The notes under the pieces were generated by a model. That model did not search any database. It was given only the letters and a program-made list of their open reading frames with translations, and had not been told where the DNA came from. Both the position numbers and the translations under genes were made by a program. From an uncultured Thiocystis sp. (GTDB lineage: Bacteria; Pseudomonadota; Gammaproteobacteria; Chromatiales; Chromatiaceae): a stretch of DNA of 32,669 bases. Positions 1,119 to 25,167 of this stretch are shown here, in pieces. Location: assembly GCF_903866365.1 (NCBI RefSeq), contig NZ_CAIPNF010000216.1, positions 1 to 32,669 on the forward strand, given 5' to 3'. The first letter of the stretch is position 1; each line of letters starts with the position of its first letter.

Positions 1119-1658
1119 CTACCGCTCCAGAAGGCGGACGCCCCAGTCCCACAGAAGCGCGCCGACCCTTTCGATCACCTGGGGGAGCGCGTCGGCAACG
1201 GTCGCTGACAACTCAAGATCCAGCTCCATCCGCTCGGGGACGATGCCGATCAGGACGATTTCGCTCGGCGGATAATCGAGCAGCTTGGTCATCGCCAGCA
1301 CGTCGGTGACACCCAGATGATGCACCGAGAGCTTTTCGGACAGGACCGCCCGGATCTCCTCGTCGCGGATCACGGCGATCGAGCCGGGCGGGCGGTCGAG
1401 CGCGATGGCGTCGATCATCAGGATGCGCCGGTAGTCGGCGAACAGCGGTAGCAGATCCATGCCGGAGGTGCCGCCATCGACCAGCGCGATGGCGGGCTCG
1501 AACCGATAGTCGGCTTCGAGTCGACGCAGGACGTGGACGCCCACGCCCTCGTCGCCCAATAGCAGATTGCCCCAGCCGATCAGCAGCACATCGGACAGGT
1601 CGGTGCCCGCTGCGTCAGAAGGTATTGACACGGACGATGTGACTGCGTTCGTTATCAT
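1119..1658 (-). CDS. hybD: Hydrogenase maturation protease HybD
   Basis: This is the endopeptidase that removes the C-terminal tail of the [NiFe] hydrogenase large subunit once nickel has been inserted. The protein has 179 residues. It carries the family opening GWGNLLLGDEGVGVH (residues 28-42). Residues matching the three nickel ligands of E. coli HybD are visible: Glu37 in GDEGVG, Asp83 in MIDAIAL and His113 in SVHHLG. VDGGTSGMDLL at 60-70 is also typical. It follows hybC, its expected substrate gene. The ATG at 1658 gives a 44-base overlap with hybC and about 20 more N-terminal residues than E. coli HybD. In-frame GTG codons at 1631 and 1589 are alternative starts, and none has a clear ribosome-binding site, so the start is uncertain. 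The family assignment is secure. Confidence 0.92.
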   Translation of the reverse strand: MITNAVTSSVSIPSDAAGTDLSDVLLIGWGNLLLGDEGVGVHVLRRLEADYRFEPAIALVDGGTSGMDLLPLFADYRRILMIDAIALDRPPGSIAVIRDEEIRAVLSEKLSVHHLGVTDVLAMTKLLDYPPSEIVLIGIVPERMELDLELSATVADALPQVIERVGALLWDWGVRLLER

Positions 1659-3318
1659 GCAGATGGATGGCGCAGGCCAGACAGGGGTCGAACGAATGCA
1701 CGGTGCGCAGCACCTCCAGCGGACGGTCTTCTTCCAGGATGGGATTGTCGATCAGCGAAGCCTCATAGGGGCCGCGCGCGTCGTTCTGATTACGCGGTCC
1801 GGCGTTCCAGGTCGAGGGCACCACGGCCTGATAGTTCTTGATCTTGCCGTTTTCGATCACGACCCAGTGCGAGAGTACGCCGCGCGGTGCCTCGTGGAAG
1901 CCATAGCCCATGATCTCGCCCTTGGGGAAGGTGGGCGGATTGAAGCTGGTGGTGTCGCCGCTGGCGATGTTGGCGACCAGCGCATGATAGTTTTCGACCA
2001 TCATGTCGTAGAGCACCTGGGTGCGCACGCAGCGGGCCAGATGACGGCCAAGGGTGGAATGCAGGGCGGTCATCGGCACCTGGCCGCCGGTCAGTGCGCC
2101 GATGCGCTCCAGCGCGTGATTGAGATAGCCGATGGTTCCCTCGTGTCCGGCGGCAACCATCGCCAGCACGTTGGCGAGCGGTCCGACCTGCGCCGGCTCA
2201 TTGAGAAATGACGGCGACTTGACCCAGGAATAGGCGGCGTCTTCATTGAAGTCGGTGTAGTCGGGATCGGTTTCGCCTTCATAGGGCGAGCGAGTCCAGT
2301 CGCCCTTGTACCAACTGTGCTTGATGCTCTCCTTGACGTTTTGCTCGAAATAGGGATCGCCGAAGTGGTTGATGGCATGGAATTGACTGAGGTCCGCCCC
2401 CGGAATATAGCCGCCGGGCATGCCGAAATCGGTTCCCTTGGTATCGCGCGGGAAATCGGGTACCGAGAGATAATTCATCACGCCCGCGCCATAGGGCAGC
2501 CAATCGGCATAGAGCGCGGCGATGGCGATGAGGTCGGGCAGATAGACTCGACGAATGAAGCCTTCCAACTCGTCCATCAAGGTCTTGATATAGGCGAGGC
2601 GCTCCATGTTTAGCGCCGACTGATCGTCGGGGTTGATGGCGTTCGCCACGCCGCCGACGGCCAGGTTTTGGATATGCGGTGTCTTGCCGCCCAGGATCGC
2701 GGTGATCTGATTGGACTTGCGTTGATAGTCCATCGCTTCGAGATAATGGGAGACCGCCATCAGATTGGCCTCGGGCGGCAGCTTCATGGCTTTGTGGCCC
2801 CAATAGCCATAGGCGAAGATGCCGAGTTGACCGCTCTCGACCAGCTTCTTGACCCGTGCCTGCACCTCGGCGAAATGGCGCGCGTTGTTGTTGGGCCAAT
2901 CCGATAGGCTCTGCGCCAGCTTCTCGGTCGCCATCGGGTCGGCGCTCAGGGCCGAGACCACGTCGACCCAATCGAGCGCGGACAGATGATAGAAATGGAC
3001 GATATGATCATGGATGCCGTGCGCGGCCACGATCAGGTTGCGGATCAATTGCGCGTTCAATGGGATTTCGAGCTTGAGCGCATCCTCGACCGCGCGCACC
3101 GAGGCGATGGCATGCACCGTCGTACAGACGCCGCAGATGCGTTGCGTATACAGCCAGGCGTCGCGCGGGTCGCGTCCGATCAGAATGGTCTCGATGCCGC
3201 GCCACATCTGCCCGCTCGACCAAGCGTCGACGACCTTGCCATCCTTGATATCGCAATCGATCCGCAAATGACCCTCGATGCGGGTGACTGGATCCACGCA
3301 AATTCGTTTCGTTGTCAT
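1615..3318 (-). CDS. hybC: [NiFe] hydrogenase large subunit HybC
   Basis: This is the catalytic subunit of a periplasmic uptake hydrogenase, holding the Ni-Fe(CN)2CO site that splits H2. It has 567 residues, the normal size. The N-terminal nickel motif RICGVC (Cys62 and Cys65) and the C-terminal motif DPCLACAIH (Cys546, Cys549, His552) provide the four cysteine ligands. Fifteen residues follow His552 and would be cut off by the HybD protease. It has no signal peptide of its own, as expected for a subunit carried through the Tat system by the small subunit. The start ATG 3318 lies one base after the hybB stop. Gene order O-A-B-C-D matches E. coli hydrogenase-2, a group 1 membrane-linked enzyme that normally reduces quinone and can work in reverse. 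Direction in vivo cannot be read from the sequence. Confidence 0.96.
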   Translation of the reverse strand: MTTKRICVDPVTRIEGHLRIDCDIKDGKVVDAWSSGQMWRGIETILIGRDPRDAWLYTQRICGVCTTVHAIASVRAVEDALKLEIPLNAQLIRNLIVAAHGIHDHIVHFYHLSALDWVDVVSALSADPMATEKLAQSLSDWPNNNARHFAEVQARVKKLVESGQLGIFAYGYWGHKAMKLPPEANLMAVSHYLEAMDYQRKSNQITAILGGKTPHIQNLAVGGVANAINPDDQSALNMERLAYIKTLMDELEGFIRRVYLPDLIAIAALYADWLPYGAGVMNYLSVPDFPRDTKGTDFGMPGGYIPGADLSQFHAINHFGDPYFEQNVKESIKHSWYKGDWTRSPYEGETDPDYTDFNEDAAYSWVKSPSFLNEPAQVGPLANVLAMVAAGHEGTIGYLNHALERIGALTGGQVPMTALHSTLGRHLARCVRTQVLYDMMVENYHALVANIASGDTTSFNPPTFPKGEIMGYGFHEAPRGVLSHWVVIENGKIKNYQAVVPSTWNAGPRNQNDARGPYEASLIDNPILEEDRPLEVLRTVHSFDPCLACAIHLHDNERSHIVRVNTF

Positions 3319-3319
3319 C

Positions 3320-4474
3320 TTACCCGCGCCCCTCTAATTTCGCATGCCCGACGGTCAACACCGGCGTCTTTTTGACAAAGAAGAGATACGCCATGATCTC
3401 GATCGCCACGATGCCGAGCGTAATCAGCATTTCGCCGACGCCAGGGAAATAGTACCAACCCGGCCCAGGGTTATAGGCAATCATGAAGGCGTCGAAGCGA
3501 TAGAGCGCCCCGCCCAGCACCACGGCGAGCGCACTCCAGAACAGAACCGTTGGACGCTCGCGCAGACTGCGGTTGAGCAGCGTGACGATAGCGAAGAGAA
3601 ACATCGCTATTTCAGCCGCGAAGAGGAATGGCTCCGATCCCGAGCGCGTCAGTGCCGCGAGATTGCCCGTCATGACGAGATCGCCGATCCGCAGAACCAG
3701 ATACAGCAGCAGCAGCCAGGGAATGACGGCACCAATCCGGGACAGCATGTCGGATTCGAGTTCGCGCTTGAGATTGACCGAGGCATAAAGCGACTCGAAG
3801 ACCACCATGCCATAGCCCATGGCGATGGCCGTGATCAGAAAGAGCAGCGGAATGATGTTGGTCTGCCAGAGCGGATGGACCTTGTCGCCAGCAATAATCA
3901 ACAGCGAGCCGAGCGAGGATTGGTGCATCGTCGGCAGCAGAATGCCCAGTCCAATGAAAAAGAAGAGGACATGGCGCAGTTGACGCAGCAGCCGATTGGC
4001 TTTCATCGCCTCCAGAATGGCTGGGGAGAATTCGATCCAGAGGACCAGCGTATAGAGCGTCACGCAAAAGGCGACTTCGAGCATCACCGAATTGAGATTC
4101 GCGTATTGCGGCAGAAAGACGTTATAGAGCTGCCAATAGCGACCGACATCGATAACGATTGAGATGCCCGCCAGGGTATAGCCAAAAACACTGGTCAGGA
4201 GCGCGACCCGAATGATGGGGTGGAATTGGCCGCGATTGAACACATAGACCAGCAGGGCCATCGCATAACCGCCGCAAGCGATGGCCGTACCAGTGACCAC
4301 GTCATAGGTGATCCACATTCCCCAGGGATAGCCATCGCTGAGATTGGAGACATCGCCGATGCCGAAGATGAACCGGCGAATAATGAAATAGCCGGCGATC
4401 AGCGCCAGAACGCCCATGAAATAGAACTGTCTGGTCAGCAGTTTGCCGCCGATGGGCCGATAGACTTCAGTCAT
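3320..4474 (-). CDS. hybB: Hydrogenase-2 integral membrane subunit HybB (NrfD family)
   Basis: This is a polytopic membrane protein of the NrfD/PsrC/HybB family that exchanges electrons between the ferredoxin subunit HybA and the quinone pool without heme. The start at ATG 4474 (MTEVYRPIGGKLL) overlaps the hybA stop as ATGACTGA. The longer frame upstream of it is an Arg-rich shadow of hybA and was discarded. The protein has 384 residues and about ten hydrophobic segments, for example FYFMGVLALIAGYFII near the N-terminus and MLITLGIVAIEIMAYLFFV near the C-terminus. Its place between hybA and hybC confirms the role. In E. coli Hyd-2 this subunit is needed for energy-coupled H2 metabolism with menaquinone; here the quinone is unknown. 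Confidence 0.93.
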   Translation of the reverse strand: MTEVYRPIGGKLLTRQFYFMGVLALIAGYFIIRRFIFGIGDVSNLSDGYPWGMWITYDVVTGTAIACGGYAMALLVYVFNRGQFHPIIRVALLTSVFGYTLAGISIVIDVGRYWQLYNVFLPQYANLNSVMLEVAFCVTLYTLVLWIEFSPAILEAMKANRLLRQLRHVLFFFIGLGILLPTMHQSSLGSLLIIAGDKVHPLWQTNIIPLLFLITAIAMGYGMVVFESLYASVNLKRELESDMLSRIGAVIPWLLLLYLVLRIGDLVMTGNLAALTRSGSEPFLFAAEIAMFLFAIVTLLNRSLRERPTVLFWSALAVVLGGALYRFDAFMIAYNPGPGWYYFPGVGEMLITLGIVAIEIMAYLFFVKKTPVLTVGHAKLEGRG

Positions 4475-5504
4475 GGCGGCGCGCCTCCGCCTTGGCTTCG
4501 GCCTGATCCTTGTCCTGCTCCGCGGTCGGATCTTCCCGTTCCTCGTGGGTATGCCGATAGGCGGCATAGACCAGTCCGCCCAAGAGGACGGTCGGCGCCA
4601 TCATGCCCTGATAGAGAGTGTGCTGGATGGTCTCCGACAGTTGGGCGCGCGACTCATCGCCGAGCGCCGGGAACCCCAGTTTCTCGAAGGGGACCGCCGC
4701 CATCAGCAGGGATTGGGTACCACCGGTTTCGGTTTCGCCATAGATTTTGGGGTAATACGCGGCGACCTCGGCGGTCCGAGTCGCGCCGCCATCCAGACGG
4801 TTGACGGGATAGTCCTGCCGTTCGCCGGGTTGGAACGTCAGGCGGCGATGGCCTTCGTTCAGCAGGTCGGACACGCGCCCGAAGAGACTGGCACCGGTCG
4901 GGCAGGCCTCGCAGCAGGCCGGAATCGCACCTTCCGCGAGACGATCGGAACACATCTCGCATTTGACGATCTTCGGAAACGGCTTGTCGTATTCGAATTT
5001 CGGGATATTGAACGGACAGGCTAACTGACAGTAACGGCAGCCGATACAGGCATCGGGGTTATAGCGCACGGCGCCGGTCACCGGATCCTTGGTCAGGGCG
5101 CTGACCGGGCAGGCCGAGACGCAATTGGGGTCGACGCAATGCATGCAGTTGCGCTTGACGAAGCTGAAGCCATCCAGCTCGCGGTCCTTCACCTCGGCTG
5201 TACCGTTGGTGTAGACCTTGATCTTATTCAGCGTCCGGCTGCCGAGGTCGTTATCGGCATCCCACACGCCGCTGACGCCGTGGGCCTGTTCGAGCGGGGT
5301 GTCATGGGCCATGGGTTTCGCGTTGGCCTCCTTGCAGCCGACCTCGCAGGCTTTGCAGCCGATGCAGAGCGTGGCGTCATAGAGAATTCCGACGGCATCG
5401 GGCGACAGTTCCCTGGGCGGTCGCGCCTGGGCCGTGGGAGCGGTCAATGCCGTCGCGGCACCAGCGAACACGACCTTGAAAAACTCGCGACGATCGATGT
5501 TCAT
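4467..5504 (-). CDS. hybA: Hydrogenase-2 iron-sulfur electron-transfer subunit HybA
   Basis: This 345-residue periplasmic protein carries electrons from the hydrogenase small subunit to HybB. A Tat signal is visible at the N-terminus (DRREFFKVVFAGAA). Four cysteine groups follow: CIGCKACEVGCK (Cys47, 50, 53, 57), CMHCVDPNCVSACP, CIGCRYCQLACP, and CEMC with a later CCEACP. These fit four [4Fe-4S] clusters, as in other HybA/DmsB-type subunits. A C-terminal hydrophobic stretch (MMAPTVLLGGLVYAAYR) would anchor it, followed by a charged tail rich in Glu, Asp and Lys. The start overlaps the hybO stop as ATGA and has a strong AGGAGGG ribosome-binding site, so translation is coupled and the start is secure. 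Confidence 0.95.
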   Translation of the reverse strand: MNIDRREFFKVVFAGAATALTAPTAQARPPRELSPDAVGILYDATLCIGCKACEVGCKEANAKPMAHDTPLEQAHGVSGVWDADNDLGSRTLNKIKVYTNGTAEVKDRELDGFSFVKRNCMHCVDPNCVSACPVSALTKDPVTGAVRYNPDACIGCRYCQLACPFNIPKFEYDKPFPKIVKCEMCSDRLAEGAIPACCEACPTGASLFGRVSDLLNEGHRRLTFQPGERQDYPVNRLDGGATRTAEVAAYYPKIYGETETGGTQSLLMAAVPFEKLGFPALGDESRAQLSETIQHTLYQGMMAPTVLLGGLVYAAYRHTHEEREDPTAEQDKDQAEAKAEARRHD

Positions 5505-6715
5505 TGGTTTCCCTCCTCTTCGGTCTTGGATTCGGTCGAGGATGCAGTCTCGGTCTCAAGCTGCTTGAGTTGCTTGTGGGCACCCAGGGCGTACACCATC
5601 GCTCCGCCGCCAATCGCTCCGGCAACCGCCGCCGCGCCAGCGGTGACACCTCCCGCATGCTCGGTAAAGATCTCCGGGAACAACGACGGCGGCCTCACCG
5701 ACTCGACATCCGACTGTTCGTGCAATGCCTTGTGGAAGCCGACGCCCTGCTCGGCGCAGCCGAAACAGGGATGGCCGATCCCGACCGGCCAGGTATTGGC
5801 ACCGACATCGCCGAACTCGATGGCGGGACAATTGGCATAGGTCTCTGGCCCCTTGCACCCGAGCTTGTAGAGACACCAGCCCTGACGATGGCCTTCGTCG
5901 CCGAACTGCTCGGCAAAGCGGGCGGCGTCGAAATGCGGCCGGCGTTCGCAGTTGTCGTGGATCAGGCGCCCATAGGCGAAGGTCGGGCGACCCTTGGCAT
6001 CGACCTCGGGCAGTTTCTTGAGGGTCAGGTAATAGAGCACGGTCGACAGCAGGTTGTAGGGCGAGGCGGGACAGCCGGGCAGATTGATGACGGGCAGCGC
6101 GGTGCCATCGGCCTTGACGATGCCTTCGCGCGTCAGGGCTTCCTGCAGGCCGACCGCCTCGGTGGGATTCGGCGCGGCGCTCTGCACCCCGCCCCAGGAG
6201 GCGCAGGAACCGATCGCGACCGCCGCCACGGCATGCGGCGCGATTTCGTGCAACAACTGCTGCGGCGTCTTGCGCCCGATCTTGCAGTAGATGCCACCGT
6301 CGCGCATGGGCACCGAGCCCTCGACGACCAGGATGAACTGGCCCTTGTTCTTTTCCAGTGACTCGTGCAGCGCCTGCTCGGCCTGATGACCGGCGGCGGC
6401 CATCAGGGTCTCCGAATAATCCAGCGAGATCAGATCCAGAATCAGCGTCTCGACGGCGGGATGCGTGGCGCGCAGCAGGGATTCGGTGCAGCCCGTGCAT
6501 TCCTGGAAATGCAGCCAGATCACGGTCGGGCGCGCCTGGCTCTGCTCCAGGGCCGCAAGAACCTGCCCGGACATGCCGAATGGCAGCCCCATGGCGGCGG
6601 TGATCCCAAGGGTGAACTTGAGGAAACCGCGCCGACTGATCCCCCGGATATCCAACTGATCCGCCAGGTAAGGTCCAATGGCCGTTTCATTCGGAAAAGT
6701 GTCAACTTCTTTCAT
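5501..6715 (-). CDS. hybO: [NiFe] hydrogenase small subunit HybO
   Basis: This is the small subunit that wires the Ni-Fe site to HybA through three iron-sulfur clusters. The Tat motif SRRGFLKF at residues 27-34 sends the folded HybO-HybC pair to the periplasm. Cluster-binding cysteines are visible in ECTGCTES (Cys73, Cys76), IGSCASWGG, NLPGCPASP, HDNCERR, CLYKLGCKG, YANCP and GHPCFGC. A hydrophobic Gly/Ala-rich segment at about 351-375 is the usual C-terminal membrane anchor. A charged tail (ESKTEEEGNQ) follows. The length of 404 residues is slightly above E. coli HybO. It is the first gene of the hyb operon; the ATG at 6715 has an AAGG-type ribosome-binding site. The preceding 549-bp region is shared with the divergent cytochrome genes. 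Confidence 0.96.
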   Translation of the reverse strand: MKEVDTFPNETAIGPYLADQLDIRGISRRGFLKFTLGITAAMGLPFGMSGQVLAALEQSQARPTVIWLHFQECTGCTESLLRATHPAVETLILDLISLDYSETLMAAAGHQAEQALHESLEKNKGQFILVVEGSVPMRDGGIYCKIGRKTPQQLLHEIAPHAVAAVAIGSCASWGGVQSAAPNPTEAVGLQEALTREGIVKADGTALPVINLPGCPASPYNLLSTVLYYLTLKKLPEVDAKGRPTFAYGRLIHDNCERRPHFDAARFAEQFGDEGHRQGWCLYKLGCKGPETYANCPAIEFGDVGANTWPVGIGHPCFGCAEQGVGFHKALHEQSDVESVRPPSLFPEIFTEHAGGVTAGAAAVAGAIGGGAMVYALGAHKQLKQLETETASSTESKTEEEGNQ

Positions 6716-7264
6716 GGATACCGCCTTGCCGCCAGGAGCGCCATCTGGATTCTGATGGTCGATCCGAGCCTGCGGATCGACACCGGGCCTAGTTTCAAAG
6801 TTAGTAATAATATTCTTATGTACTAGAATAGTTATAAGCCCAATTTCTTAAATTGTCTAATCATCGACGGCTCAATGTGTGAGCCTGATCAAAGGAGCGA
6901 CACGACGTGCGGTGGGGCGGCGAGAAACCGAATGAAATACTGCGGATAAAGACTGAATGGAATACTGTTCTATTTGGCCGAGCTTTTCGGTCAATTATCA
7001 TTAACGCCGATTTAAATTGATCTCTTCATGGTCCATCAATGATGATTGTCACTGCGTCCTTTTGGTCTCCATGGTGAATTGAGAGCCGAGCCGAGAGCAG
7101 CGAACCCTACTGCCAGACTGACCGGGACGCCATGGCAACCAACCGGGCTTTCCGCGGTCGTGAACCCGATGTACAACTTGCGGTGACTAACCTGCGATGA
7201 CGAACCTGTCCGCGAATCTAACCAGCATGCGCAATCCCAACCTCCAACCCAGGGCGGTTTTTTT
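6716..7264. promoter_or_regulatory. Divergent control region between hybO and the multiheme cytochrome operon
   Basis: These 549 bases hold no believable gene and must carry promoters for both directions. An AT-rich core lies at about 6793-6860. Several ordered signals are visible. An imperfect direct repeat GAATGAAATACTG / GAATGGAATACTG sits at 6930-6942 and 6955-6967. An inverted repeat GGCTCA-N5-TGAGCC sits at 6869-6885, and ATTGAT-N13-ATCAAT at 7016-7040. A direct repeat TGACTAACCTG / TGACGAACCTG sits at 7184-7194 and 7198-7208, with a 14-base period. No consensus sigma-54 or FNR site was found. I could not fix the -10 and -35 boxes. That these are regulator sites is inference. Confidence 0.5.
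6758..6781 (-). promoter_or_regulatory. 9-bp palindrome in the hybO leader
   Basis: GTCGATCCG, a six-base loop AGCCTG, and CGGATCGAC form a perfect 9-bp inverted repeat 43-66 bases upstream of the hybO ATG. It could be an operator or an mRNA hairpin that stabilises the leader. There is no T-run next to it, so a terminator is unlikely. Confidence 0.5.
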
Positions 7265-8209
7265 TTGACAAACCTTGCCTTGAGTGGGGCGCTGTTACTG
7301 ACACTCATCGCCGTGGCGACCCCCGCCGCGAGCGGGTCGCCGGCAACCGAGAATAAGTCCTGTCTGCGTTGTCATGCCATGGCGACGCTGGCCTATCGCG
7401 ACCCAGGAACGGGCGACATTGTCGATCTCGCGGTCAACCCGCATGCGCTGTCGCATTCGGTTCACGGAGAAATCGACTGCATCGATTGCCATGAGGGGGA
7501 CTTCGGCCGTTATCCGCACCCAGCGGACGCCGCGAACGAGACACTCTCCTGTGTCGGTTGTCATGAGAAAGACGATACGAAGGACGATACGAAGGACGAT
7601 ACGAAGGACAACATCGCGCGCTTCAAGTCGATCGATGCCGAATATGCCGAGAGCGTCCACGCGACATCCGACTCCGCCGAGGCCGAGGGATTCAGTTGCC
7701 ATTCCTGCCACGATCCGCATGGCTTCCGCGCCTCACAGGTCGGCGAGGAAATTGCGGCCATCGTCCGCGACGATAACCAGGTCTGTCTGTCCTGCCACGA
7801 GAAGGTGCGCGATCCACTGAGCGACCCGCATGCCTGGCTACCCAACCGGGAAAAACATTGGAATGCCGTGCGCTGTCTCGACTGTCACACACCCTTATCG
7901 GACAATGGGAAAACGGTCTCGCATCAGGTTTTGAAGGCGGAAGACAGCAACCGGGACTGCGTCAACTGTCACTCCCGGGAGTCCAGTCTGCTGAACCGAC
8001 TCTATCAATATCGGTCGGAAGAAGATCTGGCGACCAAAGGCTGGCTCAACAAGGCGGTCTTCAACGATGCCTATGTGGTCGGCATGAGCCGTAACGCCAC
8101 GCTCGACCTCCTCGGCCTGATCGTCACTGGTCTAACGCTGCTGGTGTTGGCCGCGCATGGCTTCGGGCGTTACAAAGCCTACCAACGGACCAAGGGGAAA
8201 CCAGAATGA
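7265..8209 (+). CDS. Membrane-anchored seven-heme cytochrome c
   Basis: This 314-residue protein has seven CXXCH heme sites: residues 33-37, 72-76, 96-100, 145-149, 174-178, 204-208 and 232-236. An N-terminal signal (ALSGALLLTLIAVATPAASG) exports it and a C-terminal helix at about 279-297 (LDLLGLIVTGLTLLVLAAHGF) anchors it, so the hemes face the periplasm. The start is TTG at 7265: no ATG or GTG exists in frame before the upstream stop at 7184, and AGGGCGG lies eight bases before it. Residues 103-114 are three exact copies of DDTK. Its stop overlaps the start of the cytochrome b gene as ATGA, so the two are translationally coupled. The most likely role is an electron wire between the cytochrome b and the eight-heme cytochrome. 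I do not recognise a named ortholog. Confidence 0.9.
   Translation: MTNLALSGALLLTLIAVATPAASGSPATENKSCLRCHAMATLAYRDPGTGDIVDLAVNPHALSHSVHGEIDCIDCHEGDFGRYPHPADAANETLSCVGCHEKDDTKDDTKDDTKDNIARFKSIDAEYAESVHATSDSAEAEGFSCHSCHDPHGFRASQVGEEIAAIVRDDNQVCLSCHEKVRDPLSDPHAWLPNREKHWNAVRCLDCHTPLSDNGKTVSHQVLKAEDSNRDCVNCHSRESSLLNRLYQYRSEEDLATKGWLNKAVFNDAYVVGMSRNATLDLLGLIVTGLTLLVLAAHGFGRYKAYQRTKGKPE
7571..7606 (+). repeat. Three perfect 12-bp tandem repeats inside the cytochrome gene
   Basis: The unit GACGATACGAAG occurs three times head to tail and in frame, encoding DDTK three times between heme sites 3 and 4 of the seven-heme cytochrome. Unit gain or loss would keep the reading frame, so length may vary between strains. 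Confidence 0.95.
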
Positions 8210-8853
8210 ACGCGCTGTATCTCTATTCGGGTTGGGTGCGCGCCTGGCATTGGCTCAATGCGCTGCTGTTTCTGGTGCTGATCCTGTCCGGAGCCAGCAT
8301 GCACTTTGCCGGCGCTGGATGGCTGCTGAATTTCGAGATCGCCCGCCCGATCCATAATGTCGCCGGCATTCTGGTGACCATCGGTTGGATCGGCTTTGTC
8401 ATTGGCAATCTGGTGACCGACAACGGACGCCATTATCGGGTGCGCTTGCGCGGCTTTTTCCAACGGCTGTTCTCGCAGATGCGCTACTACGGCTACGGCA
8501 TCTTCCAAAACGAGCCACATCCCTTTCATCCGAGCGCCGAGATGAAGCTCAACACGCTGCAACAACTCAGCTATCTAGGCGTCATGTATCTGCTGATGCC
8601 GGTGTTGATCCTGAGCGGCTGGGCCTTTTTGTTCTCGATCTATCTCCCGGAGACGCTGTTCGGCCTCGGGAGTGTCTGGGTCGTGGCCATGACGCACCTC
8701 ACGGTCGCCTATTTTCTGGCACTCTTCGTCCTGGTGCATCTCTATATCATCACCACGGGCGAGACCCTGACATCGAATCTGCGCGCGATGATCACGGGCT
8801 GGCACCGGGAGCCCGACCTGGAGACGCAACCACGCTCGGAAACACAGGGATAA
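8206..8853 (+). CDS. PhsC-like cytochrome b (thiosulfate reductase cytochrome b type)
   Basis: This 215-residue membrane protein has four hydrophobic helices (about residues 15-36, 50-70, 120-145 and 158-183). Histidines placed to bind two b-type hemes are visible: His15 in WVRAWHWLN, His50 in ARPIHNVAG, and His164 and His178 in the last helix. The segment LNTLQQLSYLGVMYLL followed by MPVLILSGWAF resembles the PhsC-like cytochrome b group, which oxidises quinol on the membrane and feeds periplasmic partners. The start overlaps the upstream stop as ATGA. It sits between the two multiheme cytochrome genes, which suggests that it delivers quinol electrons to them. HyaC-type hydrogenase cytochrome b is the alternative, but the hyb operon already has HybB and this gene lies on the other strand. 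Confidence 0.85.
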   Translation: MNALYLYSGWVRAWHWLNALLFLVLILSGASMHFAGAGWLLNFEIARPIHNVAGILVTIGWIGFVIGNLVTDNGRHYRVRLRGFFQRLFSQMRYYGYGIFQNEPHPFHPSAEMKLNTLQQLSYLGVMYLLMPVLILSGWAFLFSIYLPETLFGLGSVWVVAMTHLTVAYFLALFVLVHLYIITTGETLTSNLRAMITGWHREPDLETQPRSETQG

Positions 8854-8908
8854 GCGTGCGCACGCCGACGCATCACTGTCTTGTTCGATAACCCCAAGGG
8901 TTAGACCG

Positions 8909-11086
8909 ATGAAACGCATTGCTCTGAAACCGCTTTCCCCGACCGCGAAACGTCGGCTCATCGTCACCGTGCTCGTCCTGATCGGACTGACGGTCGCCTA
9001 CAAGGTGCTCTATCCGCTCGCCTTCGAGTCCTATGTCGGCAAAACCAACGCCCCGCTGACCTATGCCAGCAGCACGGCATTGACCAAGACAGAATTCGAG
9101 GCGCTGGCCCAGGAACTCAGCACGAATGCGCGCCAGCGCAAGGCTGCGGCGATTGTCGACACCGATCAGGAGCCATTCGCGCGCCAGGTCAAGATCGAGA
9201 TGCTGATGAACACGGAGTCCTTCATCCGCGATACCGAGCCATCGCACATCAAGTATTTCCGCGAAGCCGGCATCCATCGTTACGAAGGCCCGCAGACCTG
9301 TCTGCATTGCCATGCCACGATCCAGGTCACGCACGGCGATGGAACCGTCAAGAATGTCGATACGCTTGGCGACATCGTCAATTCGGTTCATTTCAAATTT
9401 CAAAGCGAATCGGGCGGTTTTTCCACCTATGGCTATGACGGGCGCCAGGTCAACAGCGGTCCGCACAAGATTCCGGTCGGCAAGATCAACCGCGCCTGCG
9501 GGATTCCGGGGAGTTTCACCTGGACGGGCTGGGCCGCCCTGGTCGCGAGCCGCCCGGAGCATGGCGAAGGCGAGGTGACGATGCGCAGCGAGGGCTGCGG
9601 TCAATGTCATATCGGCGGCAACTATCAGCCCGCCACCGAGAAGATGATGCCGATCGGCGATGTCCCCTCGGAGGCCAAGGAGGGCATCGACTGCCTGATC
9701 TGTCATTCCACCGATTACGACATGAATGAGCGTCATGTGATCCAGGATGACAAAGGGCTGCGCTGGAATCAGGATCGCAGTCTGCGCGCCGCGCTGACGG
9801 TCGGGCCGATCAGCTCCGAGACCTGTCTGCGCTGCCATCAGCACAACATGGGCGGCGACGCCTATCTCCACAATGAAGCCGCGCGGTCACTCGGACATAT
9901 CAATCAGCGCATCCTCCACCGGGGCGCGAAACGCGGCAATCCATTCAGTCCACACGACGACACGCATGCAGCGTCGGGCATCCAATGTACCGACTGTCAC
10001 GTCCCCGAGGGACACAAGATCCCCCGTGGCCGGAAGGGTGTGGACTTGGTCGCCAACGACATCCCGACCAAAGATGTCACCTGCGAGAGCTGCCACACCC
10101 AGGCACCGCACAACCAGTCCGAGCACAAGGCGCTGCTCAATGGCCATATCGCGCGTCTGGCCTGCGAAACCTGCCACATCAAGGAGTTGGAAGCCGAAAA
10201 TGTGGTTCTGCGCGATTGGGTGCACCCGACTTGGGATTCCGACGAAGGTCTGTTTGAACCAACCGACATCTATCGGTCAGGCAAGCCCGGCAAGGGTTTC
10301 ACCTTCCTCTGGTTCAACGGCAACGGAACCTTCCTGGCCAATGCGCTCGGCAACAATCCGAACGGTTCGGATACTTACAATCCGCTGATGCAGCAGGTCG
10401 CGCGCATCGATGATCCCGAAATGATCGCCGCTGTGCGGAGCAAGGCCACCGAACTCAAACAGCAGTATCCAGAGATCGATGTCGATGCCTATGTCCGGAT
10501 GGCAACCGATCCACTCTCGCAGCTTTCCCCGGAAATGCTCGCCAAGCGCGAGGCGATGATCCAGAATAACCTGCGCGCGGTGATGAGCCAGGGCGAGAGT
10601 CGGATCTATCCGTTCAAACTTTTCAACGCCATGATGTTCGAGGACATGTCGAATCAGGGGCCGTTCGGGGCCATGATCCTGCCGTTCGACTACGCCAGCT
10701 ATTATGAAACCGGCGATACGCCCGCATCGGTCAAGAAAGCCATTGCGGACCCCATCGTGCAACGCATGTATCAGGAGCCGTTCAAGCTCTACATGATGGA
10801 TGAGTTCATGTCCTATTTCGGCATCACCGAGGGCTGGAAAACGGTCTATCCGCTGGTCGATGGACGGCTAGAAAATGTCGAACCGCACTGGATGCGCCAG
10901 ATGGGTACGCTGATGGTCAACCACGGCATCCAGGGTAAAGGCCGCGACTGCATCGAGTGTCACTCGCCGGATGGCATTATGAATTTCAGGCAACTCGGCT
11001 ATTCACCGGAGCGCGTGGCTGAATTGGAGGATATCGACATTATCGAGAATCTTAAGGAACAGCCCGACAGCGCGGCGGCCCAGTAA
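8909..11086 (+). CDS. Eight-heme periplasmic cytochrome c, possible terminal reductase
   Basis: This 725-residue protein has an N-terminal membrane helix (about 16-37, signal anchor) and eight CXXCH sites: residues 131, 230, 262, 306, 360, 392, 419 and 681 mark the first Cys. Seven hemes are packed into residues 131-423. A stretch of about 255 residues without heme follows (with EVEPHWMRQM late in it), and the eighth heme sits 45 residues from the C-terminus. Segments such as GIDCLICH, and GIQCTDCH followed by GHKIPRG, recall multiheme families including octaheme tetrathionate reductase, but the match is too loose to name a substrate. It is 55 bp after the cytochrome b gene, in the same operon. 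The substrate could be a sulfur or nitrogen oxyanion, or it could be an electron conduit; this is unresolved. The stop codon TAA begins a copy of the TAAACCGC repeat. Confidence 0.88.
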   Translation: MKRIALKPLSPTAKRRLIVTVLVLIGLTVAYKVLYPLAFESYVGKTNAPLTYASSTALTKTEFEALAQELSTNARQRKAAAIVDTDQEPFARQVKIEMLMNTESFIRDTEPSHIKYFREAGIHRYEGPQTCLHCHATIQVTHGDGTVKNVDTLGDIVNSVHFKFQSESGGFSTYGYDGRQVNSGPHKIPVGKINRACGIPGSFTWTGWAALVASRPEHGEGEVTMRSEGCGQCHIGGNYQPATEKMMPIGDVPSEAKEGIDCLICHSTDYDMNERHVIQDDKGLRWNQDRSLRAALTVGPISSETCLRCHQHNMGGDAYLHNEAARSLGHINQRILHRGAKRGNPFSPHDDTHAASGIQCTDCHVPEGHKIPRGRKGVDLVANDIPTKDVTCESCHTQAPHNQSEHKALLNGHIARLACETCHIKELEAENVVLRDWVHPTWDSDEGLFEPTDIYRSGKPGKGFTFLWFNGNGTFLANALGNNPNGSDTYNPLMQQVARIDDPEMIAAVRSKATELKQQYPEIDVDAYVRMATDPLSQLSPEMLAKREAMIQNNLRAVMSQGESRIYPFKLFNAMMFEDMSNQGPFGAMILPFDYASYYETGDTPASVKKAIADPIVQRMYQEPFKLYMMDEFMSYFGITEGWKTVYPLVDGRLENVEPHWMRQMGTLMVNHGIQGKGRDCIECHSPDGIMNFRQLGYSPERVAELEDIDIIENLKEQPDSAAAQ

Positions 11087-11100
11087 ACCGCATCACGTCG

Positions 11101-11143
11101 ATCGTCATCGAGCCGCCGCGAGACTGCGGCGACTCGCCACGAT
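11101..11143. terminator. Hairpin between convergent genes
   Basis: CGAGCCGCCGC and GCGGCGACTCG form an 11-bp stem with one G-T pair and a six-base loop (11109-11136). ATCGT and ACGAT extend it outside an internal loop. It lies between the end of the octaheme gene and the end of the leftward gene at 11149, the right place for a two-way terminator. No T-run is present, so intrinsic termination is not certain. Confidence 0.5.
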
Positions 11144-11148
11144 GCCAA

Positions 11149-11532
11149 TCAATCAGAACGCGGTTTCGGCACAACGATCATCCTTTCCACATCGGCGAGA
11201 CGAATCTCCCGACCATCGATGGTCTGGAAGCGCCGGTCATCCACGCTCCCCCAGAGCGCCTCGAAAGACATCACCTGACCAGTATTGGCGTTGACGACCT
11301 GCACCAGAACGACCTCGTGTTCACGCTGCCATCCCGTATACAGATGCAAGGAGCTGCCGACGACCATCAAGGTCAGGACCGCTGACAGGGCGAGTCGAAT
11401 CAACCCAGGCGGGAACAGCGGCGGCCTTGGCGGCTCCAACCCCCGAGCAACACGGTCAGACCGGATACGCGCGCGGATGATGCCATAGGCACCGAGGATC
11501 ACAGCGAAGGTTAACAGCAGTTTCCAGAGCAT
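11149..11532 (-). CDS. Small two-helix membrane protein of unknown function
   Basis: I do not recognise this protein. With the start at ATG 11532 (MLWKLLLTFAVILGAYGIIR) it has 127 residues. A longer frame to 11628 exists, but its extra residues look non-coding. There are two hydrophobic helices, about 1-19 and 52-72. A soluble C-terminal half contains NANTGQVMSFEALWG and ends in ADVERMIVVPKP. That half looks like a small beta-rich domain. It stands alone on the minus strand, convergent with the octaheme cytochrome and divergent from the ankyrin lipoprotein. No ribosome-binding site of good quality is visible, so the start is tentative. Confidence 0.6.
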   Translation of the reverse strand: MLWKLLLTFAVILGAYGIIRARIRSDRVARGLEPPRPPLFPPGLIRLALSAVLTLMVVGSSLHLYTGWQREHEVVLVQVVNANTGQVMSFEALWGSVDDRRFQTIDGREIRLADVERMIVVPKPRSD

Positions 11533-11668
11533 GGCGCATACGATAACACGGCAAATCGACGGAAGCAGCCGACTGACGAGGTGCATCCCGATCAGTTGCA
11601 ACTGACCAACACACGGCCTTAACATCAACTCTGTTGCCAGGACCAGCCGTGAACTCAGTCACCCGAAC

Positions 11669-12382
11669 ATGTATCGCCCACTGCCTGCCGTGCTCCTGTT
11701 GATGGCCGCCGCACTCGCCGGTTGCCAGGAGCCGAGCCGCCCAACCATGAACCTTGAGCGTGCCGTCGGCAGCAGCGATCTGGATCAGGTCAAGCGTCAT
11801 CTGTATTGGAAAACGAATGTCAATCTCGCGGATCTCAGCGGAGATTTCCCGCTCCATGTCGCGGCACGGAATGGCCATGTGACGATCGCCCGCGAACTGG
11901 TCACGCATGGCGCGGACCCAGGCGTGTTGAACCGCAGTGGTAAAACGCCGCTGGAGGTCGCGCTTGAAAACGGCAAGACTCAGGTCGCGCAGATGCTGGT
12001 TGAACAGGGAACGCCCCTAAACCCGCAAGACATGTTTTTTACCCTGGCGCGGGACGGCAACTCGGATCGGGATGTCTTTGAATTCCTGTTCCGCCGTGGA
12101 GCGAAGGTCGATCAACCCGATGCAAAAGGCGAGACTCTACTGCATATCGCGATCTCAGAGGGCCACCTTGGTACTGTTTCGCGACTGATCGGATACGGTG
12201 CCGAGGTGAACCAAGCGGATGCCAACGGCCGTTTGCCATTGGATATCGCCCAATCAAAAGACATAGGCCGGTACTCAAAGAATATCGTCGAATTATTGAT
12301 CCGTAACGGCGCGCGCGCCACCACTCACACGCCGGAATCAGTCCCGGCCCCAATCAGTCAGTCAAGACCCAGGGGAAGCTAG
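11669..12382 (+). CDS. Ankyrin-repeat lipoprotein
   Basis: This 237-residue protein starts with a lipoprotein signal: MYRPLPAVLLLMAAALAGC, with the lipobox LAGC giving Cys19 as the lipid-bearing residue. Several ankyrin repeats follow. Clear ones are GDFPLHVAARNGHVTIAREL, then GKTPLEVALENGKTQVAQML, then GETLLHIAISEGHLGTVSRL, and NGRLPLDIAQSKD near the end. Ankyrin repeats bind other proteins, so it is probably a scaffold on the periplasmic side of a membrane. The residue after Cys19 is Gln, which under the E. coli +2 rule would favour the outer membrane. The gene ends one base before the next start, so the two form an operon. The partner is unknown. Confidence 0.85.
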   Translation: MYRPLPAVLLLMAAALAGCQEPSRPTMNLERAVGSSDLDQVKRHLYWKTNVNLADLSGDFPLHVAARNGHVTIARELVTHGADPGVLNRSGKTPLEVALENGKTQVAQMLVEQGTPLNPQDMFFTLARDGNSDRDVFEFLFRRGAKVDQPDAKGETLLHIAISEGHLGTVSRLIGYGAEVNQADANGRLPLDIAQSKDIGRYSKNIVELLIRNGARATTHTPESVPAPISQSRPRGS

Positions 12383-14907: not shown

Positions 14908-16347
14908 TCAGACAAAAGCGGCTTGGCAGAGCGATAGCAGCGCGGCTGGAAACAGACCGAGCGCAAGCAGGGCCAGGCCGTTGAGCGTCATGGCCGCCCG
15001 CACGCCACCGGTCGTGACGAGCACGGGTGCGTTTAGCGCCGGACGATCAAAATAGATAAACTTGACCACGCGCAGATAGTAAAAGGCACCGATGATGGAG
15101 AAGGCCACGGCCAACAAGGCCAGCCAGACCAGATCGAGGCGGATCACGGACTCCAGCACCAGCAGTTTGGCCATGAAGCCGACTGTCGGCGGAACCCCGG
15201 CCATGGAGAACATGATGATCGCCATCATTGCCGCGTACCAGGGATCGCGATCGTTGAGACCCTTGAGGTCGTCCAGATTCTCGGCATCGAAACCTTCGCG
15301 GCTGAGAATGAGCAGAATCCCGAAGGCGCCGGCGGCCATGACCGCATAGACGATGGCGTAGAACATGGCGGACGCATAGCCCTGGGCGGAGCCGGCGAGC
15401 AGACCGAGAAAGATGAAGCCGACATGCGAGATGGTCGAATAGGCCAGCATGCGCTTGATGTTCGTTTGCGCGATGGCGACCAGATTGCCCAGGCCCATCG
15501 AGAGGACAGCCAGGATGATCAGCATCCCCTGCCAGTCGGCCAGCAGACCCTGCAGGCCATCGGCCAGCATGCGGATTGCCAGCGCAAAGGCGGCAATCTT
15601 CGGGGCGCTACCGAGGATCAGCACGGCGGGCGTCGGCGCGCCTTCGTAGATATCCGGCACCCACATGTGAAACGGCACGGCGCCGAATTTGAAGCCGATG
15701 CCGATCACCAGGAAGACGATTCCAAACACCAGCACCTTGTTCGAGATACCCTGCTCGGCGACGGCCTGGGCCACCGGACCGAACTCGATGGAACCGGTGG
15801 CGCCATAAATCATGGAAATGCCGTAGAGCAGCATGCCGGAGCCTAGGGCGCCCAGCACGAAATATTTCATGGCGGCCTCGGCGCCCTGTTTGGAATCGCG
15901 ATCGAAGGCGACCAGCGCGTAGAGACAGAGTGCCTGGAGTTCGAGCCCGAGATAGATGGTCAGGAAGCTGTTGGCCGACACCATGATCAGCATCCCGAGG
16001 ACCGCCAGCAGACCGAGGACATAGAATTCCCCGACCAGCATGCCGCGATCCTTGAGCCAGGGGCGCGCATAGATAAAGGCAAACAGACTGACCAGCAGGA
16101 TCGCGCCCTTGAGCAGGTCGCTCATGGCGTCCCGGACCAGATTCCCGTCGAAGAAAATCTGGCGTTCGCCACCGCCGACGGCGCCGGTCAGCGCGATCGC
16201 GACCACCAGGCCGAGCAGGCTCAGGGTGTGATTGAAGCCCTTGTCCTTTTCCTTCAGATAGAGATCGACCACGAGCACCACGCAGGCGGTGATCAGGATG
16301 GCGATCTCCGGCAGGATGGGCAGCAGATTGGCGGCGTCAAATGGCAT
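14908..16347 (-). CDS. nuoN: NADH-quinone oxidoreductase subunit N
   Basis: This is one of the three antiporter-like proton-pumping membrane subunits of complex I. It has 479 residues and about 14 hydrophobic helices. Glu136 in YLGLELQALCLY and the lysine in KFGAVPFHMWVPD are the conserved charged residues of the proton path. The start ATG 16347 gives MPFDAANLLPILPEIAILI. It is the last gene of the operon, 38 bp after nuoM. The last helix (ALLALGLFPAALLSLCQAAFV) runs almost to the end, as usual. Confidence 0.96.
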   Translation of the reverse strand: MPFDAANLLPILPEIAILITACVVLVVDLYLKEKDKGFNHTLSLLGLVVAIALTGAVGGGERQIFFDGNLVRDAMSDLLKGAILLVSLFAFIYARPWLKDRGMLVGEFYVLGLLAVLGMLIMVSANSFLTIYLGLELQALCLYALVAFDRDSKQGAEAAMKYFVLGALGSGMLLYGISMIYGATGSIEFGPVAQAVAEQGISNKVLVFGIVFLVIGIGFKFGAVPFHMWVPDIYEGAPTPAVLILGSAPKIAAFALAIRMLADGLQGLLADWQGMLIILAVLSMGLGNLVAIAQTNIKRMLAYSTISHVGFIFLGLLAGSAQGYASAMFYAIVYAVMAAGAFGILLILSREGFDAENLDDLKGLNDRDPWYAAMMAIIMFSMAGVPPTVGFMAKLLVLESVIRLDLVWLALLAVAFSIIGAFYYLRVVKFIYFDRPALNAPVLVTTGGVRAAMTLNGLALLALGLFPAALLSLCQAAFV

Positions 16348-16385
16348 GTGGATCTTCCAATTCTATTGAGTCATCGGTGCCGGAG

Positions 16386-17981
16386 TTAGTGCGTCGCCGC
16401 CACGGGCCTGCCGTTCAGCTCGGCGATCGGCGCGGGCCGCGCCAGGACGCAGTCGGCGCTCTCGGCGGCGGGCAGCTTGCAGACGCTGACCTGAGTGACC
16501 AGATTCTCCACCGTCGCATGCATGACGTTCATCAGCGGCGCGGGCCACAGACCCAGCGCCAGTACGGCGGCGGCAAGCGCGCCCAGGTTGAAGGTCTCGC
16601 GGGCGTTCAGATCCTGCAGGACCGCGACCTTGTCGTTCTTGACCTCGCCAAAGACGACCCGCTTGACCATCCAGAGGGTAAAGGCCGCCGCCAGGATCAA
16701 CGTGGTCGCGGCCAGCACCGCCCACCAGAAGTCGGCGCGGAAGGTCGCCAGAATAACCATGAACTCGCCGACAAACCCGGAGGTACCCGGCAGACCCGCG
16801 TTGGACATGGCAAAAAAAACCATGAAGGCGCCGAACCAGGGCATGGTGTTGACCACGCCGCCGTAGTCGGCGATCTCGCGCGAATGGACCCGATCATAGA
16901 GCACGCCCACGCAGAGGAAGAGCGCGCCGGAGATGAAGCCGTGCGAGATCATCTGCACCATGCCGCCCTCGATCCCCATCACCGATCCGGAGGATAGCGC
17001 CGGGTTCTGGATGATGGTGAAGACGATGAAGAAACCGAGCGTCACGAAGCCCATGTGAGCGATCGACGAATAGGCGATCAGCTTCTTCATGTCCTGCTGC
17101 ACCAGCGCGACGAAGCCGATGTAGAGAATAGCGATCAGCGACAGCGCAATGATCAGCCAGGCCAGCGAGGCGCTGGCGTCCGGCGTGATCGGCATCGAAA
17201 AGCGCAGGAAACCGTAACCGCCGATCTTCAGCATGATCGCCGCCAGGATCACCGAGCCGCCGGTCGGCGCCTCGACATGGGCATCCGGCAGCCAGGTATG
17301 GACCGGAAACATGGGCACCTTGACCGCGAAGGCGAGCAGGAAGGCGATGAAGATGAGGATCTGCGCGGTCATGCCGAGTTGCAGTCCCTGGAAGTCCAGG
17401 ATGCTGAAACTACCGGACTGGAAATACAGGTAGATCAGCGCGACCAGCATGAAGACCGAGCCGAAGAAGGTGTAGAGGAAGAACTTGATGGTCGCGTAGA
17501 CCCGGTTCGGTCCGCCCCAGACCCCGATGATGATGAACATCGGGATCAGCATCGCCTCCCAGAAGACATAGAAGAGGATGGCGTCCAGCGCCGAGAAGAC
17601 ACCGACCATGATGCCATTCATGATCAGGAAGGCCGCCATGTATTGCGACGGCTTGTAGGTGATGACCTCCCAGCCCGCGACGATCACGAAGATGGTGATG
17701 AAGGTCGTGAGGATGATCAGCGGCATGGAGATGCCGTCGACGCCCAGGAAATACTCGACGTTAAAGGTTGGAATCCAGGCCGAGCGTTCGACGAACTGCA
17801 TCTGGGCCGTGGTCGAATCGAAACCGATCCAGAGTCCGAGGCTGACCAGGAAGGTCAGTACGGCGAAGGTCAGCCCGATCCATTTGGAGAGATTCGCGGA
17901 TTTATCGCCGCTCGCCAGGACCACCACGCCGCCGATGATCGGCAGCCAGATGACCAGTGTCAGCAGGGGGAACTCATTCAT
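16386..17981 (-). CDS. nuoM: NADH-quinone oxidoreductase subunit M
   Basis: This antiporter-like proton-pumping subunit of complex I has 531 residues. Glu142 in FYVFWEAMLIPMFI and Lys221 in FAVKVPMFPVHTWLPDAH match the key charged residues of the family. The discontinuous-helix region is visible after HTWLPDAHVEAPTGGS. The C-terminus has an extra hydrophilic tail of about 35 residues with Cys in VSVCKLPAAESADCVLARP, which is longer than in E. coli NuoM. It lies 21 bp after nuoL. Confidence 0.96.
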   Translation of the reverse strand: MNEFPLLTLVIWLPIIGGVVVLASGDKSANLSKWIGLTFAVLTFLVSLGLWIGFDSTTAQMQFVERSAWIPTFNVEYFLGVDGISMPLIILTTFITIFVIVAGWEVITYKPSQYMAAFLIMNGIMVGVFSALDAILFYVFWEAMLIPMFIIIGVWGGPNRVYATIKFFLYTFFGSVFMLVALIYLYFQSGSFSILDFQGLQLGMTAQILIFIAFLLAFAVKVPMFPVHTWLPDAHVEAPTGGSVILAAIMLKIGGYGFLRFSMPITPDASASLAWLIIALSLIAILYIGFVALVQQDMKKLIAYSSIAHMGFVTLGFFIVFTIIQNPALSSGSVMGIEGGMVQMISHGFISGALFLCVGVLYDRVHSREIADYGGVVNTMPWFGAFMVFFAMSNAGLPGTSGFVGEFMVILATFRADFWWAVLAATTLILAAAFTLWMVKRVVFGEVKNDKVAVLQDLNARETFNLGALAAAVLALGLWPAPLMNVMHATVENLVTQVSVCKLPAAESADCVLARPAPIAELNGRPVAATH

Positions 17982-18002
17982 TCAGGGTGTCTCCCGTGCG
18001 CG

Positions 18003-20009: not shown

Positions 20010-20016
20010 CTCTTCA

Positions 20017-20322
20017 TCACCCCTTCAGCGAATCCAGATCCTCGACATTGATGGTCTGCCGATTGCGAAACAGCACGACCAGAATCGCCAAGCCGATGGC
20101 GGCCTCGGCAGCGGCGACGGTCAGGATGAAAAAGACGAAGACCTGTCCGGTCATGTCGCCGAGAAAATGCGCGAAGGCGACAAAGTTCATGTTGACCGCC
20201 AGCAGCATCAGCTCGATGCACATCAGGAGCAGGATGACGTTCTTACGATTCAGAAAGATCCCGGCAACGGCAATGGAGAAGAGAAAACCGCCGAGGATCA
20301 GATAGTCGGAGAGTGCGATCAT
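20017..20322 (-). CDS. nuoK: NADH-quinone oxidoreductase subunit K
   Basis: This is a small three-helix membrane subunit of complex I, 101 residues, the exact family size. Glu37 ([11 protein letters not shown]) and Glu73 ([11 protein letters not shown]) match the two membrane glutamates needed for proton translocation in E. coli NuoK. Its start overlaps the nuoJ stop as ATGA, so it is translationally coupled. Confidence 0.97.
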
Positions 20323-21061: not shown

Positions 21062-21092
21062 AAATATTCAATTTTTTCATCTTTTTATCATC

Positions 21093-21668: not shown

Positions 21669-21682
21669 CGGTTGTCTCCGGT

Positions 21683-22717: not shown

Positions 22718-22727
22718 CGTTGCCTCG

Positions 22728-25154: not shown

Positions 25155-25167
25155 GAGTGTGTCTTTC

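Follow-up and report, generated by a model that had tools for sequence, protein, structure and literature searches.

A conserved cytochrome trio and its hydrogenase neighbor in an uncultured Thiocystis: one respiratory module or two units?

Adjacent operons raise the question of whether their products work together. A 32,669-base contig (hereafter the window) of the 5.5 Mb draft genome of an uncultured Thiocystis sp. (G000 in our family sample) poses this question sharply, as its hydrogenase genes hybO-A-B-C-D on the minus strand stand head-to-head with three plus-strand genes, here called the trio, that encode a heptaheme cytochrome c, a PhsC-like cytochrome b, and an octaheme cytochrome c. 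An earlier reading of the letters alone (the sequence-only reading) had proposed that both operons share a regulator and constitute a complete respiratory module, in which electrons from H2 pass through quinone to the multiheme cytochromes and on to a periplasmic or extracellular acceptor. On balance, and with modest confidence, we instead regard the trio as a self-contained, membrane-bound oxidoreductase that links quinone to a periplasmic substrate, probably inorganic sulfur, with Hyb as a separate enzyme and hydrogenases as exchangeable inputs. Papers identified by PMC number are cited throughout from excerpts.

The trio as a conserved unit

The heptaheme gene (7265..8209, plus strand) and the cytochrome b gene (8206..8853, plus strand) overlap by 4 bases and are followed by the octaheme gene (8909..11086, plus strand), whose nearest named relative, from Thiocystis minor, is 94% identical, which marks the organism as one of the purple sulfur bacteria in the Chromatiaceae. 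The heptaheme protein, found in 73 loci, has seven CxxCH motifs, a signal-like N-terminus, and, by hydrophobicity, a C-terminal membrane helix at residues 277-301. The octaheme protein has eight CxxCH motifs and, by the same measure, a single N-terminal membrane helix at residues 15-39. Since the same counts are kept across relatives (seven motifs in 72 of 73 complete heptaheme genes and eight in 77 of 78 complete octaheme genes), they are not a product of chance. In the cytochrome b, H15, H50, H164, and H178 are invariant in 73 sequences, which is enough for two b hemes, and the hydrophobic stretches fit four helices. Its likeness to PhsC, the thiosulfate reductase cytochrome b, comprises these four histidines and a match to the PhsC-like model NF011582 over residues 3-201 (194 bits, just below the cut-off of 204), in addition to a match to PF01292 (Ni_hydr_CYTB) at 1.4e-24. 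Unlike in thiosulfate reductase, neither PhsA nor PhsB is found beside it among the scanned genes of the window.

The trio is widespread and keeps its composition. In a single scan of a collection of named genomes, 101 stretches were confirmed and 80 loci kept, of which 72 show all three genes. Eight loci are incomplete: L082 is without a cytochrome b, and in seven the heptaheme gene was not found, four of these being also without cytochrome b; in most loci with no visible heptaheme gene, the contig begins near the octaheme gene. By record label, 68 loci belong to Pseudomonadota (including Chromatiaceae, Magnetococcales, and Thiotrichaceae), two each to Ignavibacteriota, Calditrichota, Bacteroidota, and Latescibacterota, and one each to Coatesiibacteriota, Chlorobiota, and Spirochaetota, with one unplaced. 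Many are metagenome bins, and single labels may be wrong, e.g., that of the Spirochaetota row, which lies beside a Caldithrix row in the tree. The octaheme protein is at least 55% identical to that of the window across records of eight named phyla, and its gene occurs in 37 of 398 genomes of a phylum sample (E up to 1e-20) and in 50 of 146 genomes of a family sample (E up to 1e-100). When open reading frames were clustered across the 80 loci, no other gene recurred beside the trio in most of them, leaving the trio as the only conserved unit. Many of the other clusters consist of local repeats, response regulators, or reading frames antisense to GC-rich genes, and scattered hydrogenase clusters were overlooked by this procedure because the hydrogenases are of different kinds.

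Hyb adjoins the trio in a minority of loci. Among the 63 loci in which the heptaheme gene starts beyond base 2,500, a divergent hybO within 2.5 kb is present in seven, all of them among the 39 labeled Chromatiaceae and none among the other 24; the window is an eighth case. This was the count that the sequence-only reading had named as its own check, and it finds the trio normally without Hyb, which, together with trio genomes that have no strong [NiFe] hydrogenase match, amounts to the outcome that this reading had given as its refutation. Since most relatives keep the trio in this state, H2 is probably an optional electron source for the trio rather than its purpose.

The trio also occurs where no strong hydrogenase match is found. 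Five of the 50 octaheme-bearing genomes of the family sample (G419, G449, G488, G511, and G522) have no match to PF00374, the [NiFe] hydrogenase large subunit, better than 2.4e-18. The clearer cases are G419 (99% complete, best match 8.3e-9) and G449 (no match, its own octaheme match being partial), while matches near 1e-18, as in the remaining three, can be Hox-type enzymes, as in C. okenii. PF00374 likewise has no match in the genomes of L084, L090, and L103 (records of Magnetococcales, Melioribacteraceae, and Latescibacterota, respectively; the completeness of these genomes is not stated), and its matches in the genome of L076 (Thiomargarita) are partial. C. okenii LaCa (L048) carries the trio together with weak PF00374 matches only, with no membrane-bound uptake type at PF00374 strength, and its genome paper, as excerpted, reports no hydrogenases (PMC6374484). 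The strain does encode a soluble-type [NiFe] hydrogenase large subunit, a 494-residue protein (L146, 325-1809; G676:C17) whose scores resemble those of the Hox-type protein in L060 and in which CGIC and CLSC motifs are present. Because of this Hox-like subunit with its metal-site motifs, C. okenii is not counted as hydrogenase-free. Occurrence of the trio without a strong uptake hydrogenase match indicates that an enzyme of this type is not required for it.

The octaheme protein, its substrate, and the direction of electron flow

The closest structural relative of the octaheme protein is octaheme tetrathionate reductase (OTR). The Shewanella oneidensis enzyme (1sp3) is matched at 3.7e-17 in a profile search, and a profile-profile comparison with ten OTRs gives a probability of 99.85 over a match that spans heme 2 to heme 8. 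A structure model of middling confidence (mean pLDDT 72, pTM 0.76) superimposes on 1sp3 with Z 9.7, an rmsd of 4.2, and 359 aligned residues, the next match being at Z 4.9. The two proteins thus share eight CxxCH motifs in an OTR fold. They differ in that the octaheme protein is 18% identical to OTR, scores 81.6 bits against the TIGR04315 cut-off of 375, has about 110 extra N-terminal residues that include the membrane helix, and is provided with a dedicated cytochrome b partner.

A further difference concerns the lysine that ligates the catalytic (second) heme of OTR (PMC11024163). On sequence alignment rather than coordinates, leucine L320 occupies this position in the window (GGDAYL vs GGGGDAVK). 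A lysine at OTR spacing is present in 11 of 81 members of the octaheme family, in contrast to 10 of 10 OTRs; the position is variable, and some of these lysines fall inside an alignment insertion. They occur in seven Magnetococcales loci (L084, L086, L087, L088, L091, L093, and L098) and in L081, L089, L106, and L112. All 81 members share the motif G-K-I/V-N/D-R-A-C ahead of heme 2, and the N-x-x-C or D-x-x-C that it contains resembles N61-N-F-C64 of OTR, residues which we take to line the active site. A separate, true OTR with the catalytic lysine is encoded elsewhere in the same genome (G000:C281:43209-44576, L120; 610 bits). An assignment of the octaheme gene as tetrathionate reductase proper was rejected on the grounds of its score far below the TIGR04315 cut-off, the leucine at the lysine position, and this true OTR. 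On these comparisons, the octaheme protein is a separate subfamily of the OTR fold.

The predicted anchors would place fifteen c hemes in the periplasm and two b hemes in the membrane, and the three proteins likely form one complex. A predicted-fold search with the heptaheme subunit yields no outstanding match (the best multiheme match is at Z 3.6), and its best sequence match is 28pb_A, titled only Cytochrome c. Mean column identity is 59% over 37 chosen octaheme members vs 37% over 36 heptaheme proteins, and the octaheme alignment contains many invariant non-heme residues. This pattern, expected of an enzyme rather than a wire, suggests that the octaheme subunit is the catalytic one. The arrangement recalls CbcBA of Geobacter sulfurreducens, likened here by excerpted description only, in which a multiheme cytochrome c and a cytochrome b form a low-potential quinone-linked unit. 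CbcA is likewise a heptaheme protein, and we know of no octaheme partner for CbcBA.

In the mechanism that we favor, the four-helix di-heme cytochrome b would exchange electrons with quinone, the heptaheme cytochrome, anchored at its C-terminus, would relay them, and the OTR-fold octaheme cytochrome, anchored at its N-terminus, would act as the catalytic subunit at the periplasmic face. An inorganic sulfur compound is the most likely substrate, and electrons may flow in either direction depending on conditions. Both proposals draw on the analogy with OTR activity, on reported sulfide induction, and on distribution. The Shewanella OTR acts on tetrathionate, nitrite, and hydroxylamine and is described as a reductase (PMC4484225). 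A 2019 genome paper presents a cytochrome b561 and an octaheme cytochrome as conserved among purple sulfur bacteria and, citing Weissgerber 2013, states that the pair is up on sulfide in Allochromatium vinosum (PMC6374484). The same species has one 7-heme and two 8-heme cytochromes, and of its larger cytochromes, some are stated to be without an annotated function and expression to be enhanced on pyrite (PMC11267869); the pyrite-enhanced 7- and 8-heme proteins presumably include the trio. As to distribution, the octaheme gene is present in 47 of the 57 reaction-centre genomes of the family sample vs 3 of the other 89, and the window's genome has reaction-centre genes as well. Sulfur oxidation was also considered as the explanation of this distribution and set aside, since dsrA is near-universal in the family and hence not discriminating.

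Much of this evidence could be read in the opposite sense, with the trio running in reverse, so that a reduced periplasmic donor (sulfide, polysulfide, or another) supplies electrons to quinone for photosynthesis, and with hydrogenases as parallel donors. Such a role is possible, and we hold it to be doubtful. Induction of the A. vinosum homologs on sulfide (PMC6374484), enhancement of 7- and 8-heme cytochromes on pyrite (PMC11267869), and the association with reaction-centre genes would all be in keeping with it, and CbcBA has been proposed to run backwards in Seep-SRB2 (PMC10553843). Against this stand the description of Shewanella OTR as a reductase (PMC4484225) and the occurrence of trio members in phyla that, from general knowledge, have no sulfide-driven phototrophy.

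Hydrogenases beside the trio

The hydrogenase of the window lies entirely on the minus strand and is separated from the heptaheme gene by 549 bases (6716-7264). The small subunit gene hybO (5501..6715) exceeds the cut-off of TIGR00391 (434 bits) and has a weak Tat signal match; hybA (4467..5504) encodes a ferredoxin-like iron-sulfur subunit (NF008134, 424 bits, cut-off 263) and hybB (3320..4474) an NrfD-like membrane subunit (NF008133, 510 bits, cut-off 450). The start of hybB was taken as an ATG within a longer open reading frame (3320-4567), and 4474 is thus approximate. The large subunit gene hybC (1615..3318) matches PF00374 at 1.8e-220 and carries the metal-site motifs CGVC and CLAC, and hybD (1119..1658) encodes the maturation protease (PF01750, 2e-28; TIGR00072, 141 bits). 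HybA and HybB pass the curated cut-offs of their hydrogenase-2 models, while HybO (NF007779, 459 vs 659 bits) and HybC (NF007778, 825 vs 969 bits) fall under the narrow equivalog cut-offs for Escherichia coli hydrogenase-2. The window shares subunits O, A, B, and C, protease D, and their gene order with the E. coli enzyme and differs from it in adjoining a multiheme trio. The gene calls, the model matches, and the exact counts of seven and eight CxxCH motifs bear out the divergent arrangement described in the sequence-only reading.

Within the family, Hyb and the trio are closely associated. Of the 146 genomes, 15 have a close hybB (at least 77% identity), and the octaheme gene is present in every one of them (Fisher p = 2e-8 over the family, kinship not corrected); a more distant hybB (47-53%) is present in a further 21. 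The distance between hybB and the octaheme gene is 4.1-4.8 kb in 12 of the 15, the window included, and 14 and 17 kb in two, whereas the genes lie on different contigs in one. For seven loci, Hyb and trio distances are correlated (Mantel r 0.945, with 7 of 5040 permutations as high), and the two trees agree in their unrooted topology. Within the octaheme tree, the eight hyb-adjacent rows fall within one 24-row set with a support of 85. The hyb states require six changes on this tree, at least five of them forced, and 5 of 500 shuffles give a number as low. In Allochromatium humboldtianum (L037, 7643-8276), hybD and a 28-residue hybC match, with no match to hybO, hybA, or hybB, directly precede the trio and represent a deletion scar. 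Given the tree pattern and this scar, one gain followed by repeated loss is the simplest reading, and we infer loss of hyb rather than repeated gain. Within one group of purple sulfur bacteria, Hyb and the trio are genuinely associated and have been inherited together.

Shared control of the two operons does not follow from the intergenic region. A conserved minus-strand element at 6807..6862 (TAGACA, 17 bases, and TATAAC, with an AT-rich block downstream) is common to all eight hyb-flanked intergenic regions aligned. A model of this element matches all seven hyb-bearing loci, one only at E 0.18, a test that is partly circular for the four from which it was built, and it matches none of 66 upstream regions of a trio without adjacent hyb at E up to 5. 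Because it is confined to hyb-bearing loci, the element is best read as the hyb promoter. A simple promoter scan gives nothing above chance. The shared regulator that had been proposed was accordingly dropped, with the limit that no trio-side operator was searched for beyond the element alignment and the promoter scan.

Hyb is one of several hydrogenases near the trio. Matches to HybO or HybC were scored in the 39 loci whose trio is flanked by 8 kb or more on each side, and these place a hydrogenase gene in the flanks of 11 of 27 Chromatiaceae loci vs none of 12 others. Four of the 11 (L036, L049, L051, and L110) are cases of Hyb beside the trio. Three Thiocapsa loci have a HupSL-like small and large subunit 2.8-6 kb beyond the octaheme gene (L040, 14880-18691; L045 and L046, about 18110-20930), followed in L040 by a hydrogenase b-type cytochrome (233 bits, cut-off 121.5). 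In four Thiohalocapsa loci (L060, L064, L069, and L073), a partial match to the large subunit lies several kb ahead of the trio and is of the soluble (Hox) type in L060 and L073, the two checked; the Hox-type genes of L060 are at 1127-4632, with HoxU over its cut-off. A third type, Isp, occurs 2-4 kb beyond the trio, opposite Hyb, in L039 (11685-18727) and L051 (14393-20604). This label is based on a CCG-domain protein between the small and large subunits in L051 and on what is presumably the Isp gene order. L039, which carries both Hyb and the Isp-type cluster, is without 8 kb upstream and therefore outside the 27. On the non-hyb side of the octaheme gene, a strong hydrogenase match lies 2.7-7.1 kb away in at least six genomes of the family sample (G420, G468, G498, G499, G504, and G519). 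These near-trio cases come from few lineages, with kinship not corrected. They favor a functional or historical tie of the trio to H2 in Chromatiaceae and count for the sequence-only reading. The Isp-type Hyn hydrogenase of Thiocapsa is the described link between H2 and sulfur in purple sulfur bacteria (PMC5944118). Hyn resembles the arrangement proposed here in coupling H2 to sulfur metabolism on the periplasmic side and differs from the window's Hyb in using Isp1/Isp2 rather than HybA/HybB.

These associations are the strength of the proposal that, in Chromatiaceae at least, the two operons answer to a shared regulator and make up a single H2-to-multiheme respiratory module. The head-to-head order in 12 of the 15 close-Hyb genomes, the absence of any such genome lacking the octaheme gene, the congruent histories, the three other hydrogenase types in the flanks, and the matches on the non-hyb side are all as it would have them. 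We nevertheless consider it unlikely, as hybO is not beside the trio in 56 of 63 loci, the trio occurs in genomes without a strong hydrogenase match and was kept when hyb was deleted in L037, and the intergenic element is specific to hyb. What endures of the complete module is the identity of the genes, a quinone link that is chemically possible, and a real Hyb-trio association in Chromatiaceae; what does not is the claim that they are a single unit. The gene combination had also been offered as undescribed, which is true in part: the b561/octaheme pair is already in the 2019 genome paper (PMC6374484), and nothing on the Hyb neighborhood was found in the open-licence literature searched, where absence is weak evidence.

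For a trio that is self-contained, as we prefer, HybOABC would be a separate H2:quinone oxidoreductase that feeds the same quinone pool where it is present. Hyb would have come beside the trio in an ancestor of Chromatiaceae, been co-inherited, and then been repeatedly lost, with other hydrogenases coming near the trio in other lineages of the family. H2 would thereby often serve as an electron partner of the trio but be replaceable in this role, with quinone as their only point of contact.

Sulfur globules serve as a dark electron acceptor in purple sulfur bacteria, and a more specific proposal builds on this role. The trio could be a quinol-dependent reductase of stored sulfur or polysulfide for dark globule respiration by purple sulfur bacteria and other organisms that form sulfur globules, for which in Chromatiaceae a nearby hydrogenase of any type (Hyb in the Thiocystis/Allochromatium/Thiodictyon group) provides an H2-driven version and in which the octaheme protein is a new catalytic OTR-fold subfamily with a changed active-site heme. 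In Thiodictyon syntrophicum, sulfide rises in the dark as stored sulfur is used, an observation given as unpublished (PMC5944118). In this specific form, the proposal is distinctly unlikely.

An extracellular acceptor, as named in the sequence-only reading, finds little footing: the MtrB/PioB porin (PF11854), the only porin-cytochrome system tested, has no match in the window's genome, which weakens the case for an extracellular conduit. A role of the trio as the inner-membrane part of such a conduit to minerals is very unlikely, for despite the resemblance of the heptaheme c and cytochrome b to low-potential CbcBA, the pyrite induction reported for A. vinosum (PMC11267869), and an MtrB/PioB match at 4e-72 in the same-genus genome G529, only 10 of 50 octaheme-bearing family genomes have an MtrB/PioB match under 1e-50, the octaheme subunit is predicted to be anchored at its N-terminus, and no porin-cytochrome gene recurs beside the trio.

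Several points weigh against a self-contained trio with a sulfur substrate. With respect to H2, the 11 of 27 flanked Chromatiaceae loci exceed chance expectation, which we roughly put at less than one locus, so the role of H2 may be larger than we propose. A strong [NiFe] hydrogenase match is present in 45 of the 50 octaheme-bearing family genomes, and A. humboldtianum, which has lost hyb, retains two other full-length hydrogenases. Among the 57 phototrophs only, close Hyb and the octaheme gene are associated at Fisher p = 0.049 (kinship not corrected), and the Fisher values overstate independence because the 15 Hyb genomes are related. Hyb may also have been gained repeatedly, the 24-row set having a support of 85 only. 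With respect to sulfur, 121 of 146 family genomes have a dsrA match above the cut-off, and the association with phototrophy tracks lineage as much as sulfur; the occurrence of members in Ignavibacteriota, Latescibacterota, Spirochaetota, and others speaks for a substrate that is not special to sulfur oxidizers. With respect to the complex, no cytochrome b was found between the heptaheme and octaheme genes of L082 (Ignavibacteriota, 9030-12187), which follow one another directly, and no biochemical evidence was found for the complex, its direction, or its substrate.

Surroundings and significance of the trio

The octaheme gene is followed downstream by a same-strand ankyrin-repeat lipoprotein-like gene (11669-12382). 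Ankyrin-like genes that cluster with the L034 relative of this gene lie just upstream of the trio in six Magnetococcales loci (L084, L088, L091, L092, L093, and L098). The remainder of the window includes genes of the complex I (nuo) operon at 14908-28257 on the minus strand, a tRNA-Leu (29959-30043), and a tmRNA (32043-32397).

With an octaheme subunit conserved across eight phyla and present in most reaction-centre genomes of the family, the trio makes a good candidate for a respiratory or photosynthetic reaction not yet described. Its independence of Hyb means that a first experimental host is better chosen without this hydrogenase, e.g., A. vinosum, which, to judge from its relative A. humboldtianum, presumably has none. 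A new lead comes from Chromatiaceae, where four kinds of hydrogenase repeatedly neighbor the trio. An old question about the dark metabolism of purple sulfur bacteria would become testable if stored sulfur is indeed what the trio acts on.

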